A DNA stretch of 13,731 nt from Stenocarpella maydis (taxonomy: Eukaryota; Ascomycota; Sordariomycetes; Diaporthales; Diaporthaceae), in the NCBI GenBank assembly GCA_002270565.1, contig NQMI01000309.1, positions 1 through 13,731 of the forward strand. Reading direction: 5' to 3'. The position numbers and the translations under genes are program-made. Shown here piece by piece: positions 2,203-12,972 of the stretch. The notes under the pieces are model-generated. The model made no database searches and was not told the DNA's origin. It saw nothing but the letters and a program-made list of their open reading frames with translations. Position 1 is the first letter of the stretch. Every line of letters starts with the position of its first letter.

Positions 2203-2820
2203 TTATAAATATCTCTGGAAGCTGCTACGCAGAGGCATCACATCCTGTAATGGGCTGTGGCGCGACGCGTCTAGAGCATCGTAGCTATCGTAGGCCACGG
2301 CTACCGATACCAGTGGGAGGTCCATCTTCTGGAGCATCTCTGCCTCGTCGGCGGTGCGGTCATCTAGGTACCAGTGCAGCTTTCCGCCTGTTCCTGCCGA
2401 GTCGGGGCGGTTGAACGTGTACTCCTTGTCGAAAATACCGAGCGAAAAGCCAGAATCCATCTGGCGGCTGACAAGGTAGGGACCACGTTCTTATAGGTCG
2501 TAGCATAGCCCGGTTCTGTCGTCGGAATATATCTTCGGCCAAACCGGCGAGGCAAATGCGGTGCTGTGCATGACAAGCGCGTTGGCCTATCCTGTGTTCT
2601 CGGGGCCAAGACTGCGGATTTCATATCGAAGTGACAGACAAGATTCGGCCGCCATGTTGTAAGTATTTCGATCTGCCGCCAGAACATGAAGCCCGGCGAG
2701 ATGGAACGTGGCTAGGAACTGACCAGGCACCTAACAGATGTGCGAGCCTGCGTTGCCACCGTGATTCATCCTCCGCGGAGCTGCCGCTTTAGCCGCCATC
2801 AGCGTCATGACCGGCCTCCT
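2203..2820 (-). pseudogene. relic of an unrecognised protein-coding gene
   Basis: One minus-strand frame stays protein-like from about 2820 down to a stop at 2203-2205, interrupted by in-frame stops at 2731-2733 (TAG), 2587-2589 (TAG) and 2491-2493 (TAA). The segment between the last two stops (ANALVMHSTAF...SDDRTGLCYDL) and the one after them (ERGPYLVSRQMDSGF...LDASRHSPLQ) continue in phase with no frameshift, so they read as one protein of about 200 residues. TAA and TAG in place of CAA and CAG are what C-to-T mutation gives, which fits a gene on the edge of the RIP-like block to its left. A spliced-out intron starting near the first stop could remove that stop, but not the other two. I do not recognise the family and cannot identify a start. 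Confidence 0.4.
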
Positions 2821-3487: not shown

Positions 3488-4377
3488 TCAGTATTTCGCA
3501 TCATTCTTCCACCGCACAAGCCCACAGTCCGGGAACTTGCGCCAGAGTATGGCGTTCAGTTCATGCAGTGGGCGCTGCTCCATCGCGGAGTGAGCGCAGT
3601 GATCGGTGTGGTCCCACTGTGACAAGTACGAGTCAAGAGTATGCAGACCTCTCCTGGAAACGGCAGTGAACAGCCTCCGATTCATCTCCGCGCAGTGGCG
3701 TTGGTGATCTGTGGTTCGTGAGCAAGTATTGTCAAGATCCTGATCCATGGGCAGAACTCACATTCCCACTCCACGAGTACATACTCATGCTCTCCTTTGG
3801 CGACTTCATCCCAGCTGACTTCCTCCGTTCGGTTCGGCTGGAGCCAGAATCTCCAACTCGTGTACTTCTTGAAGTTCTCCTCTGTTTCTTCGTCGTAGCA
3901 CTCCTCGGGGAGCCATGCACCGTATAGCATCCCATAACGACAGCCACGGGCTCTTGCCTCGGCTGCGCTGTGACCGCAGGGATTTATTTGCGAGAACTCC
4001 GCGCTTGGGTCCTTGTAAACTGCCGGGATGACTCCCTCAAAGCCATAACGGTGGTGAGTAATGTCCGTCTGGCATGAGTTGTCGCTGTGCCCTCCATGAA
4101 TATGCTGCCCGCTGGTGTCACTCCCTGGCATGCTGCCGCGAGAGCCACCCCAGAGACCAATTCCGAACCAGTTCAGCAGAAGTACCACCAAGCCTGCGTG
4201 CGCTATCAAGATAAACAACAAGACGAATGATTTCAGGATGAAGTTCAAGTGCCTCCGCCTGGATCGACTTCTGTCAAATCCAGGGGTCTTCTCGTCGTGA
4301 GATAATAATGACTGAACCCCATCATCAGCACTGAAAGACCTCCGGCCTACTGGTGAGTACTCGTCTCTGCCCGCCAT
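3488..4377 (-). CDS. UstYa-family (DUF3328-like) membrane oxidase, two exons
   Basis: The gene is complement(join(3488..3708,3762..4377)), 278 residues. Exon 1 ends GAG-TGG-GAA-T, followed by a 53-bp intron with donor GTGAGT (3761-3756) and acceptor CACAG (to 3709). Splicing restores the frame as VEWE-YHQRHC. Residues 1-47 form a hydrophilic cytosolic tail, 48-70 a single membrane helix, and the rest a lumenal domain. Cysteines 134, 146 and 160 sit in a CGHSAAEARARGC...WLPEEC block that I associate with many fungal proteins of this sort. H207-x-x-H210-C211 and H239-x-x-H242-C243 are the two HxxHC motifs that define UstYa-type proteins. In ustiloxin and related pathways these enzymes oxidatively modify or cyclise peptide cores in the secretory system. 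The gene is divergent from the repeat precursor at 5602, about 1.2 kb apart, which supports a joint role. Family assignment is strong; the exact reaction is inferred. Confidence 0.82.
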
Positions 4378-5601
4378 ATTTTGGATATTATGCGGGAGTT
4401 ATTAGTATGTGTCCACATACAAGTGAGGTAAGGAACAAGCAATGAAGAAGTGAGGATGAAACAGAAGAATCACAGAATTGATCGTCGGAAGAGCACTATG
4501 TCTGTACACGCAGACACTCAATCCATATGAATCCGGAGATATTATATCAACAAGTACCGGAGGAATTACACCGGGGTTGTCGCTTGAGCCGAGCGGAGCC
4601 CGCAATTGGCGATCCTCTTCCCCACGGGGTATCAGAAGGATTCAAAAGGAAGTGCTCTGCATCTGCATTAGTGTTCCATGGAGCATGATTTAACGGACAA
4701 AATACAGTCCCAATTGGTTCCATATTTTGGTCCAACGTGAGAGATGCGGGGAAGTAAATTTGTAAGTATTGTCAAGACAGGCTCGGATGGGCAGTGACAC
4801 GTCAACATCACTTTGATAGGGTCTGAAGCTCCGACTCGGACTTCACGACCTTCTTCCGAGACCCGTAAGCAGTAGCTGTTATTTAGTAACCCCTTGTATG
4901 ACGGCCCACAATGGAAGAATTCATCGCACAAACAGCATCCGTATTGAGCGGTGTGCCGGTCTATTCGACCCGTTACACCACGAGTTAGTGGAAAGCACAG
5001 AAGTGATGAGTTGTGCATGTTCAGTCAGCTGATAGCCTCGGAGGATGGTGCATCAAATCCTTCGGGGACAGGCACATGTGGTTAGCAGGAGCTGTGCCAT
5101 ATCGCATTTCATGAACGGAACCAGAAGTTCAGAAGCGATCATTTGTTGTGACCTGATCGTTGGATGCATAGAAGTGTAGGCATCATGATCCTCACGGAGT
5201 ACAGGCAGTAAGCACTGCATAGCATGGTTTCAGCTAAAAGAGCCATCGTGACAGTGAGTCACCTCACGGATAGCCCGGGGTGAATAACTGCCGGTGTATC
5301 TGTGACGACGCAGAATGCCAAGCGGGTGCTTCGTAGCAGGGATATGTGGAAATGGCGCATTTCCTTGTCAACAAATTGCTGTCGGTACCTCTGTAGACAT
5401 GGGGGTCTGCTTCCGGAAGGCAGGGCCTTGGGGCTATGGCAATTCCTATAACTGTTATAGAAGTTCGTGGGCGCTGTCAGGTCTCCTTTAAAGGAGACAC
5501 TTCAGTCTCAACACCTCGTGCACCTTAACTTCGCCGCATTCCAAGACACACATCGTCTACAACTCCTACTTGTCAGAATATCTAAGCCTCCACTTCTCAC
5601 A
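4378..5601. promoter_or_regulatory. divergent intergenic region between UstYa-type gene and precursor
   Basis: About 1.2 kb separates the two start codons, so the region must hold both promoters. Near the precursor it contains an 18-bp perfect palindrome (5481-5498). CCTCGGAGG at 5036-5044 is a GC-rich near-palindrome of the sort bound by Zn2Cys6 regulators, but so short a match proves nothing. A minus-strand open frame (4668-5018, Cys-rich, about 116 codons) has no recognisable domain and I do not call it a gene. The segment 4764-4794 resembles the intron of the neighbouring UstYa-type gene. Confidence 0.5.
5481..5498. promoter_or_regulatory. perfect 18-bp palindrome upstream of the RiPP precursor
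   Basis: GTCTCCTTTAAAGGAGAC is identical to its reverse complement. It ends about 104 bp before the precursor ATG. The centre TTTAAA could serve as a TATA-like element; the arms GTCTCC/GGAGAC could be half-sites for a dimeric regulator. No other copy was noticed in the window. Function is inferred from symmetry and position only. Confidence 0.5.
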
Positions 5602-5952
5602 ATGAAAGCTTCTCTTACCTCCCTCGTTGCCACTCTCTTGATCGCAACTGCGGTAGCTATCCCAGTTGCTAACGACGATGTCGAGCCGTTCGCGGGTATC
5701 AGGCGGGAAGAGGAGGTTGAGCCTTTTGCCGGCATTAAGCGTGACGACGAAATTGAACCATTTGCTGGCATCAAGCGCGATGATGAGGTAGAGCCTTTCG
5801 CCGGCATCAAACGTGAGGAGGTCGAGCCATTTGCTGGAATCAGGCGTGAGGAGGAGGTTGAGCCCTTTGCAGGCATTAAGCGTGATGACGACGTTGAACC
5901 CTTCGCGGGCATCAAGCGTGATGATGATATCGAGCCCTTTGCAGGCATCTAG
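5602..5952 (+). CDS. Kex2-processed repeat precursor, dikaritin-type RiPP candidate
   Basis: A 116-residue secreted precursor. The frame is open further upstream, but the ATG at 5602 has a good context (CTCACAATGA) and starts a clear signal peptide, residues 1-19 (MKASLTSLVATLLIATAVA), followed by IPVAN. The rest is eight copies of (V/I)EPFAGI, starting at residues 27, 39, 51, 63, 74, 86, 98 and 110, six with V and two (51, 110) with I. Seven dibasic sites separate them: RR at 34-35 and 81-82, KR at 46-47, 58-59, 70-71, 93-94 and 105-106. Each is followed by two or three acidic residues. The last copy ends the protein at the stop, with no basic tail. This is the layout of ustiloxin, asperipin and victorin type precursors: Kex2 cutting, trimming, then oxidative modification by UstYa-type proteins, one of which is encoded divergently next door. 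There is no intron. The core contains Phe but no Tyr, as in victorin. A secreted multi-peptide of another kind (pheromone-like or hydrophobic repellent-like) is the alternative. I do not recognise the mature product. Confidence 0.88.
   Translation: MKASLTSLVATLLIATAVAIPVANDDVEPFAGIRREEEVEPFAGIKRDDEIEPFAGIKRDDEVEPFAGIKREEVEPFAGIRREEEVEPFAGIKRDDDVEPFAGIKRDDDIEPFAGI
5680..5949 (+). repeat. eight in-frame core repeats (36 bp, one of 33 bp)
   Basis: The units encode (V/I)EPFAGI-(K/R)R-acidic spacer. Spacing between cores is 12 residues except between copies 4 and 5, where one acidic residue is missing (11). At DNA level Pro is written CCG, CCT, CCA and CCC, and Ala GCG, GCC, GCT and GCA, in different copies, while the encoded EPFAGI never varies. 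The repeats are therefore old enough to have diverged at silent sites and are held by selection on the peptide. Confidence 0.95.
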
Positions 5953-7701: not shown

Positions 7702-7776
7702 TAGTCAATGGTACGCCCACCTAGCTTTTTCCGTACGCCCACCCAAGGATTTGCGTGCACCCACCCAGAGCTACAA

Positions 7777-8220
7777 AAAGCTATGCGTGCAGCCCTATAC
7801 AAAATTTAGTACCTTTTTAAAAAAAAGTTCCTTCCGCCCACCCAGAACTCCTGCTATAGCTCTTAAATATCCCTGCTCTACCCCTCCTTTAAGAGGGCCC
7901 CTCCCTCCGTCCCTTCCACCTTCAAAGGGCCCCTTCCTCCTAAGGGCCCCTTCCCCCTAAGGGCCCCTTTCTCTTAAAAGCTTCTTCCTTTAGAAGACCT
8001 TTCTTTTTAAATAGCCCCTCTCTTCAAAGGGCCCTTAGGAGAAAGGGGCCCTTAAGAGGAAGGAAAGGGCCTCTCTAAAAGGAAATATAAAGGAGGGCTA
8101 TCCCTAGCTATAGCAGGGATATTAGAGAGCTATAGTAGGGGTTCTAGGTAGACGGAAGGAATTTTTTTTTTTTAAAAAAAAAAGGTACTAAATTTTGTAT
8201 AGGGCTGCACGTATAGCTTT
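7777..8220. repeat. large internal hairpin A of the transposon
   Basis: The left arm (about 7777-7885, AAAGCTATGCGTGCAGCC...ACAAAATTTAGTACC) matches the reverse complement of about 8086-8220 with scattered changes, including a longer A/T run on the right. The loop contains several copies of a short palindrome-like AAGGGCCCCTT motif. Together it could fold into a long stem. Confidence 0.8.
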
Positions 8221-8227
8221 ATGTATG

Positions 8228-8813
8228 GTCATCGTACACGCACTTAGCTTTTTTAGTACACGCACCTAGCTATTTCCGTAGGTGCACCTAGTAGTATAAG
8301 AAATTAAGCGCGAAGCACACCTAATCTCCTTATACCTATAGTTCCTCAACCCTACTAATAGCCCCTTAACCCCATACTTAGGCCCCACCTTACCCCTAGC
8401 TAGGTGTATAAAAAGCCCATTAGATATGTAGAAAGCCTATTAGGTGCATAAAAAGCCTACATTAAAGGCCTACCTACCCTAACCCTCTGGGCCTAGGCTA
8501 GCACCCCACCATATGCCCTCCACACGCCCAAAGGAAGACCCTCTAATACCTAAAGAAAGACCCTCTACACACCTAAACGAAGACCCTCTACTTATACCTA
8601 CCTAAAGGAAGGCCCTCTATACGCCTAAAGGAAAGACTTATAAAGGGATATATAGAGGGCCTTCCTTTGGGCGCGTGGTAAGGTGTAGAGGGGCTTAAGA
8701 GGGGGGAGGTACAAGAATTTATAGTGTGCTGCACGCTTAATTCCTTATACTGGGTGCGCCCACGGAAATAGCTGGGTGCATATACCAAAAAAGCTGGGTG
8801 CGTGTATAATGAC
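8228..8813. repeat. large internal hairpin B of the transposon
   Basis: The left arm from 8228 (GTCATCGTACACGCACTTAG...CTATTTCCGT...AATTAAGCG) matches the reverse complement of 8730-8813. An inner pair matches CACGCCCAAAGGAAGACCCT (from 8522) with the reverse complement of about 8650-8680. The two arms share the ACGCACCCAGCTTTTT-like motif of the terminal repeats, suggesting that the element grew by repeated duplication of its ends. Confidence 0.75.
8527..8638. repeat. degenerate tandem repeat, about 22-29 bp, five copies
   Basis: Copies of CCTAAAGGAAGACCCTCTA begin near 8527, 8549, 8572, 8601 and 8624, each with one or a few changes. They lie inside hairpin B of the transposon, toward its loop. 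Confidence 0.75.
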
Positions 8814-8893
8814 TGCTTTTTGTAGCTCTGGGCGGGCGCATGCAAATCCTTGGGTGGGCGTACGGAAAAAGCTGGGTGGGCGTACGTTGACTG

Positions 8894-11172: not shown

Positions 11173-11208
11173 AAAAAAAAAGAAAAGAAAAGAGAAAAGA
11201 AAGGAGAG
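11173..11208 (+). repeat. low-complexity A/G tract
   Basis: An uninterrupted purine run built of AAAAG-like units. It is the boundary between normal-composition DNA and the second A+T-rich block. Confidence 0.8.
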
Positions 11209-11229
11209 CTAAAATCATTGAAATCTGGA

Positions 11230-12690
11230 AACCCAGAGTTATAAGTGTATAGATTTCTATAATATATTAAAATATAATAATTTATACGTAGAGTACAAGA
11301 AGGCCAGGACCAGAAAAGTAGCACACCCTGCTTGACTTATATAAAAAGCCCAGCGTATACACCCCGCAAACCGTCAAATTCGCCCGAATGAACGAGAGTC
11401 ACAGGAGGAGTTGAGAGAGGAGAAGAGAAGGCGAGTATTCTGTAGGAGTTAGATTGCTTAGTTATTGTTTAAGAATATAAAGTATTTAATACTCCTATGA
11501 ATGTGGTTTGGCTTAGCGTAGGGAAGAGAGAGGACAGAAAGAAAGTATCGAGATTTAACAGCTACCTTAAATGTTATATTTATCGGGCTGGAGGATTAGT
11601 AGGAATTAAATAGATGTTATATATGAGAAGTGGGGTAGTAGTATTATGAGTACGGTAGCTACGCTTAGAGAAATAAGAGATAGCTGAGTGTGGAGTGATG
11701 CAGTGGAAAATTAGAGATGTATAGATGAATATATAGAATAGCTAGAGTAGTAGACTAGGGTAGCTGAGGTTTTAGTAAATTTAGCAACTATAAGCTATTC
11801 TGGGAGTCTGCTTAGGGCTAAGTAAGTAATAGAAGTTAGCACTAATCAATATTAACTAATTACTTAAGTAGCTAGAGATGTGATTAGTCTATAATGTAGA
11901 AAGTTAGTAAGTAGAGTATGATAGAGTAAAAGAAACGTTAGTAAACGTGGACTTGATAGTGAGGACTTTGGTCGATGCTACGGGGGGGCTTTAGGTTTTA
12001 AAACTAATAAGTAGTAGTAGGAGTAGTAGTAGTAAAGTATAGCTTGATGACTAGCGCTAGAGTTGTGAGATCATAAAAGGAGCTATTAATTCTTTAAATA
12101 GGGGTTAATAATTGGTCAGTATGAATTGAGTGGGAAGAACTATAATGGGGTCATTGACCTGAGAGAATAAAGTATATGGGGACATTATTCTGACTATTTT
12201 AATATATAGACTAAGCTAATTACATGTTCATGGTTTTCATCAGTAAAATAAATGCTTAAAATGAAAGGCATTTGCGAAGCTAACTAGCGTGTTAGCTTTT
12301 AATATATTTATAAGCTTAAAGTATAGCCATTTATATGACTAGATGAGTTATAAAGAGAATAATATTAATAACAAGTTTTATTTTATATCTTTTGAATCTT
12401 AAAATATCTTAGATTAACCACAAGAGCTATTTAATAATTGCAAGATTTAATTTTAATAAACCATATATTTAAAATAGCTTATAATATATAAACGGATATA
12501 TTCCTTTATAAGTATACAAAAACGGATAAGAGTTATAAATTAACATTAACAATAAGATAAGTATTAAAATCCTCTAAAGAAATAATAGGTTATTTATTTA
12601 GCTTTTATATGCTGATAGTTAAGAGCGATGGGGTGAGGGGTAGACTATTTGAATAATAATAGATATTTAACATCAAAGTGAGGGATGTAG
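11230..12690. repeat. second A+T-rich, RIP-like block
   Basis: Mostly A+T-rich sequence with abundant TpA and stops in all frames, less extreme than the first block, with patches of mixed composition (11330-11460, 11940-12060) and an AGT microsatellite at about 12010-12034. A TATATAAAA motif lies near 11339. Because it runs into a retrotransposon-like 3' end at 12691-13226, it is probably the mutated body of that element. No domain can be read in it. Confidence 0.65.
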
Positions 12691-12972
12691 GTAGGAGATA
12701 GAGTATGGAGTAAGGAAGAACGAACCGCTCGCGAGGCGTGGTACTCCGTGCAAGGTTACCCTAGACTTCGTGTAAGGAGTTACCTTAGGCGTCTAGCATA
12801 GAGTACCCGTTGCGAGTACAGGCGTGCCGCTGAAGATCGCGCACAGCGCGGAACGCAAGATGAGTTGGTGGCCGAGGCGATGGTATTATGGGCCTGCAGT
12901 GCCACCTTAAATTCGGGACCTTGCCCGTTACCTGTGGAGGTTGTACCCAGGAAAGGAGGGAATGTAGGGCAT
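12691..12972 (+). pseudogene. decayed C-terminal coding frame of a retrotransposon polyprotein (candidate)
   Basis: One plus-strand frame reads through this segment with a single internal stop (TAG at 12799-12801). It gives a basic, protein-like sequence (ERTAREAWYSVQGYPRLR..., later AAEDRAQRGTQDELVAEAMV). It closes at a stop (12973-12975) just past a polypurine tract and the putative start of an LTR, the normal place for the end of pol in an LTR retrotransposon. I recognise no domain, so the identity rests on position alone. Confidence 0.3.
12949..12962 (+). other. polypurine tract before a putative 3' LTR
   Basis: AGGAAAGGAGGGAA is immediately followed by TGTAGGGC. A purine tract abutting a TG dinucleotide is the plus-strand priming arrangement of LTR retrotransposons. 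Confidence 0.45.

Follow-up and report, generated by a model that had tools for sequence, protein, structure and literature searches.

Does a secreted repeat precursor that lies divergently beside a membrane protein with two HxxHC motifs form a locus for a modified peptide, even when the Pfam model for UstYa/DUF3328 proteins (PF11807) does not recognize the membrane protein? The question is raised by a complete contig of 13,731 bases (C225, here called the window), one of 312 contigs in the 53.5 Mb genome that was searched. The dikaritins are described as including ustiloxin, phomopsin, and asperipin-2a, with victorin and epichloecyclin also counted among them (PMC10512285). In a large survey of Kex2 repeat precursors, modified peptides were distinguished from linear ones by the presence of DUF3328 neighbours (PMC7329392). 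The analysis presented here indicates that the window probably holds a compact two-gene, dikaritin-like fungal RiPP locus, with a UstYa-like oxidase missed by PF11807.

The precursor gene comprises the following features:

5602..5952, plus strand: Kex2-type repeat precursor, 116 aa, with eight EPFAGI cores (open reading frame and repeat analysis)
5602..5670, plus strand: putative signal peptide, approximately residues 1-23 (N-terminus hydrophobic on visual inspection)
5683..5949, plus strand: eight EPFAGI cores with acidic-dibasic spacers (sequence)

The eight EPFAGI copies are in frame, with starts at 5683, 5719, 5755, 5791, 5824, 5860, 5896, and 5932, and are preceded by V (six copies) or I (two copies). 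KR or RR directly follows seven of them, and the stop codon ends copy 8. Cut after each KR/RR, the precursor gives, in order, MKASLTSLVATLLIATAVAIPVANDDVEPFAGIRR, EEEVEPFAGIKR, DDEIEPFAGIKR, DDEVEPFAGIKR, EEVEPFAGIRR, EEEVEPFAGIKR, DDDVEPFAGIKR, and DDDIEPFAGI. The repeat period is 12 residues, with one of 11 and with KR/RR in between, and the array scored up to 393 in Tandem Repeats Finder. The numeric KEP repeat criterion of Umemura 2020 is given as at least three tandem repeats, each of at least 8 aa, between KR/KK/RK/RR sites, none exceeding 100 aa (PMC7329392), and the precursor falls within it. The initial annotation proposed a heptapeptide core, (V/I)EPFAGI. The eight copies of this heptapeptide are indeed present, but the predicted Kex2 products have 9-10 residues (EEEVEPFAGI, DDEIEPFAGI, EEVEPFAGI, etc.), the N-terminal copy being longer, and the heptapeptide would be obtained if further trimming is assumed.

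At the DNA level, all eight copies of the EPFAGI core differ from one another. Six of the 18 core sites are variable, every one of them a third position and silent, a confinement that rules out a chance repeat or an illusion of the reading frame. At least 11 silent changes are needed in the cores, with a naive P of ~4e-7 (2:1 transition weight) that serves as a guide and not as a test, since the copies are related to one another. Because the core variation is all silent, the EPFAGI peptide appears to have been kept by selection while its DNA drifted.

Relatives of the precursor were found neither in viral contigs nor, besides the precursor itself, in its own genome, and no mention of EPFAGI, VEPFAGI, IEPFAGI, or EPFAGIK was found in the open-access papers searched. 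The precursor also gave a weak Pfam hit, HTH_49 (E 0.00027; 21.4 bits vs. a cut-off of 27, over 10 residues), which was discarded as a repeat artefact.

Kex2-processed repeat proteins, among them the alpha-factor-type pheromone precursors, have the same repeat architecture and processing sites. The alpha pheromone core of filamentous fungi contains Trp/Cys. The EPFAGI precursor differs in having no Trp or Cys along its whole length, which rules out an alpha pheromone identity, and in having a UstYa-like neighbour; its core contains Phe and is also devoid of Tyr. A linear, unmodified, secreted signalling peptide, with the HxxHC gene as an unrelated neighbour that belongs to another pathway or to none, is an unlikely alternative that agrees with the absence of Tyr, Trp, and Cys from the core and with the 6120 of 7878 surveyed repeat precursors reported to have no DUF3328 neighbour (PMC7329392). 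The same survey, in contrast, reports that pheromone-type precursors have no DUF3328 neighbours, with three exceptions, which speaks against that alternative (PMC7329392).

The neighbouring gene is read from the opposite strand, and it is organized as follows:

3488..4377, minus strand: gene for a UstYa-like double-HxxHC membrane protein, 278 aa when spliced (splice search, clade alignment, hydropathy)
4377-3762, minus strand: exon 1 (splice search)
3709..3761, minus strand: intron, 53 nt, GTGAGT...CAG (its removal creates HQRHC)
3488..3708, minus strand: exon 2, with both HxxHC motifs and the stop included (splice search)
4378..5601, no strand: divergent intergenic region, 1,224 bp between the start codons (repeat search)

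Three splice models exceed 240 aa (252, 257, and 278 aa). The first HxxHC is absent from the two shorter ones, and the 278-aa model was chosen because it alone restores this motif, matching nine paralogues with single open frames. The resulting protein carries HQRHC at residue 207 and HTDHC at residue 239, and has a single hydrophobic stretch (residues 43-76), all later 19-mers having hydropathy values of at most 0.23. These gene structures bear out the pair described in the initial annotation, namely a secreted repeat precursor and, about 1.2 kb away on the opposite strand, a membrane protein with two HxxHC motifs. A UstYa/DUF3328 match of the spliced protein had also been set beforehand as a test; Pfam returned no family at E ≤ 10, hence no PF11807 match, and identity as a Pfam UstYa member is ruled out. 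This result favours the linear-peptide alternative. PF11807 found no match at the window's site, PDB sequence searches gave nothing meaningful (best E 3.1 and 1.2), and AlphaFold2 applied to the motif exon by itself (72 residues) was uninformative (mean pLDDT 49.5). Within the intergenic region, a search for regulatory repeats shared by the two genes detected just short, weak ones.

Using the window protein and two paralogues as queries, a clade of at least 12 genes was identified at nine sites of the genome: C225 (the window), C274 (four genes), C100 (two sites), C240, C23, C56, C246, and C239. With some 12 such genes in 53.5 Mb, a divergent neighbour at this short distance is unlikely by chance, which argues against an unrelated neighbour and a linear peptide. 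Ten of the 12 members were aligned, omitting the intron-split C239 member and C100:106878. Both HxxHC motifs are kept in all ten, and each has exactly one hydrophobic stretch, N-terminal to the motifs, at a Kyte-Doolittle threshold of ≥1.6 over 19 residues, which measures hydropathy alone, sidedness not being part of it; the stretch is weak in the C240 member (1.68). The ten invariant columns of the alignment are accounted for by both HxxHC motifs, three more cysteines, and one alanine, and a fourth extra cysteine is nearly invariant. PF11807 matched two of the ten aligned members at E ≤ 10 (best E 0.00096), the window protein not being one of them. BLAST linked 44 of 45 within-clade pairs at E ≤ 1e-3, as compared with 2 of 80 clade-UstYa pairs and 23 of 28 pairs within eight UstYa frames (L001-L008 minus L006 and L008, plus one each from L036 and L026), six of which contain both motifs within the frame used. 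Because links are dense within the clade and sparse to the UstYa frames, the clade forms, by sequence similarity, a cohesive group distinct from the PF11807 set. No description of it was found in the literature searched, matching being on words and not on sequences.

At C56 (L032:7251-8282), a neighbour of the clade member carries HQLHC in one open frame and HAEHC in the next. Pfam found nothing at E ≤ 0.01 in the first of these frames, and the neighbour is possibly another unrecognized HxxHC protein.

The relation of the clade to UstYa proteins was examined by profile comparison, which gave a probability of 80% (P = 1.4e-5) with both motifs in register, and 64% (P 6.5e-5) in a separate run. 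The profile score was 39.0, against 20.1 for the best of 200 column shuffles and 10.5 for the reversed profile. Masking the six motif columns lowers the score to 10.8 and abolishes the link, which thus rests on the motif residues. As judged from these comparisons, motif, spacing, and membrane layout seem to be common to the clade and UstYa proteins, likeness beyond the motif not being detected. Both have a putative membrane helix followed by a domain with HxxHC(x)nHxxHC, and the motifs are 25-36 residues apart in the clade vs. 23-31 (one of 52) in six UstYa frames. The clade differs in that an invariant C...GC...C block precedes the motifs, and the window protein differs in having no PF11807 match. 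The best reading is that the membrane protein is a putative UstYa-like oxidase missed by PF11807. In CctR, a DUF3328 protein of cyclochlorotine biosynthesis, the HxxHC(x)nHxxHC motif is reported as essential, activity being lost when motif residues are changed, and copper as required, with two coppers bound per monomer (PMC12435403). By analogy, a similar copper dependence may extend to the clade. The initial proposal of a dikaritin-type RiPP locus was therefore retained in that a Kex2 repeat precursor is paired with a double-HxxHC protein, but not for family membership, as the protein is outside PF11807. Since it belongs to a separate clade that resembles UstYa proteins in motif, spacing, and membrane layout, the term dikaritin is used here as a functional analogy and not as an established membership.

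The genomic company of the clade provides a further line of evidence. The genome contains 62 PF11807 matches, on 27 contigs, and four of the nine clade sites (C274, C100a, C240, and C23) are within 2 kb of one of them. The 2-kb zones around PF11807 matches make up 0.3% of the genome (binomial P 1e-8; 1.9e-6 with 10-kb zones). Sites with no PF11807 match within 10 kb are the window, C100b (which has one at 23.8 kb), C56, C246, and C239; this absence at the window makes the RiPP-locus reading slightly weaker. At C240, the clade member is at one edge of 12 PF11807 match stretches (316-331 kb), which were counted exon by exon and hence correspond to fewer genes, and an acyltransferase is also present. 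A second Kex2 repeat precursor occurs there on the minus strand (C240:320038-320655, equal to L026:4038-4655), with five IPWTKNYGEY copies and a core of approximately CAIPWTKNYGEYDE. The clustering of this precursor with another clade member counts against a linear EPFAGI peptide; in that peptide's favour, no repeat precursor was seen in the stretches covered at the other six of the seven clade sites examined, in a search that comprised seven of the eight non-window sites (C100:106878 omitted; L031 and L033 outside one scan) and would miss intron-split precursors. Other frames flagged in these scans were dropped by eye, being Arg-rich and of low complexity or antisense to the C240 precursor, as was an NDQLH repeat in L037, which has no dibasic sites. 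One 10-kb stretch was scanned in each of the UstYa regions on C20 and C67, and neither contained a repeat precursor.

Victorin biosynthesis uses a copper amine oxidase. A copper amine oxidase gene on C274 has four clade members and one PF11807 match within ~10 kb of it (C274:72300-82400; L021, L022), and no repeat precursor was found in C274:60001-90000. On C100, polyketide synthase domains adjoin a clade member and a PF11807 match, so that the clade is not restricted to RiPP loci. This placement, along with the genes for a short list of other enzymes on the window contig, speaks for the possibility that the membrane protein is the oxidase of a non-RiPP pathway (e.g., with the SDR and the enoyl-CoA hydratase) and that the precursor is independent of it. 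SDR (two open frames) and enoyl-CoA hydratase are the only Pfam-recognized genes among the large or scanned frames of the contig; no polyketide or non-ribosomal synthase was recognized there, and the nearest gene to the oxidase gene is the divergent precursor, so that a non-RiPP oxidase is very improbable. Likewise, no tyrosinase, methyltransferase, peptidase, or transporter was recognized among the large or Pfam-scanned frames.

The genes of the window form an island flanked by AT-rich blocks at 1-2180 (17% GC) and 11200-12700 (32% GC). TpA/ApT ratios of the blocks are 1.27 and 1.33, resembling RIP-mutated repeats by a threshold that we take to be indicative of RIP. Nested inverted repeats (7711-8885), similar to a fold-back element, occur between the SDR and enoyl-CoA hydratase genes, with outer arms of 71 nt that are 94% complementary and 1,033 nt apart, and a TpA/ApT of 1.94. 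From the introns, the number of PF11807 matches, and the RIP-like AT-rich blocks, we infer that the organism is a filamentous fungus. At the island edge, an acetyltransferase-like remnant (2206-2637, minus strand) has two in-frame stops and 38% identity over 144 residues to a 299-aa open frame at C257:268005. The sequence past residue 147 is missing from the remnant, the AT-rich block starting there, and the intact paralogue is itself weakly GNAT-like (PF14542, 17.2 bits vs. a cut-off of 30). RiPP clusters with an acetyltransferase are reported in a lichen study (PMC12048977), and, judging by its location alone, the remnant may once have been a tailoring gene, since lost.

Alternatively, the pair could be what is left of a larger RiPP pathway, a decaying or partial cluster that makes little or no final product because AT-rich, RIP-like mutation around the island has removed its other genes; this would accord with the island setting, with the interrupted remnant, and with the fact that no further RiPP-type gene was recognized in the contig. 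It is nevertheless improbable, as the precursor and membrane protein genes are both open and intact, and the silent-only changes of the cores suggest that the precursor was maintained until recently.

The reading as a functional two-gene RiPP locus is supported by the gene structures, the silent-only core variation, the conserved double motif, and the repeated placement of the clade beside UstYa-model matches. The precursor would enter the secretory pathway, where Kex2 would cleave at KR/RR and carboxypeptidase trimming would leave near-identical (E/D)n(V/I)EPFAGI peptides. The HxxHC membrane protein is predicted to expose its catalytic domain to the lumen, its paired motifs holding copper as in CctR, and would oxidize the peptide from the neighbouring precursor. 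The most likely chemistry would be C-H activation, with ring closure through the aromatic ring of Phe or through an aliphatic side chain, or else hydroxylation or desaturation, which are likewise possible (PMC12435403; PMC10512285). Tyr is reported in 65.6% of repeats with DUF3328 neighbours (PMC7329392), and the Tyr-free core counts mildly against a Tyr-type crosslink. Victorin, reported to be cyclized through a Phe side chain (PMC9233826), offers a precedent for Phe-based ring closure; it differs in its core, its chlorination, and its cluster-encoded peptidases, no such genes being recognized at the EPFAGI locus. Like the dikaritins in general, the locus combines a secreted precursor, whose tandem cores are separated by Kex2 sites, with an adjacent double-HxxHC membrane protein, and it differs from them in an oxidase-like protein outside PF11807, in a core with Phe and no Tyr, and in having only two recognized RiPP-type genes.

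A broader proposal, possible if on balance doubtful, is that Kex2 repeat peptides are matured by a second clade of double-HxxHC copper oxidases, one that PF11807 does not detect, the window protein being the sole oxidase of its locus. The clade is missed by PF11807 in eight of ten members and yet occurs near UstYa-model matches and repeat precursors, which would change the view of which precursors count as modified. If the proposal is true, part of the 6120 precursors reported as having no DUF3328 neighbour may be RiPPs (PMC7329392), and surveys reliant on PF11807 would overlook a whole arm of fungal RiPP chemistry. The EPFAGI locus constitutes a two-gene test system for this question, where the Tyr-free core would show if the modification falls on Phe or on an aliphatic residue.
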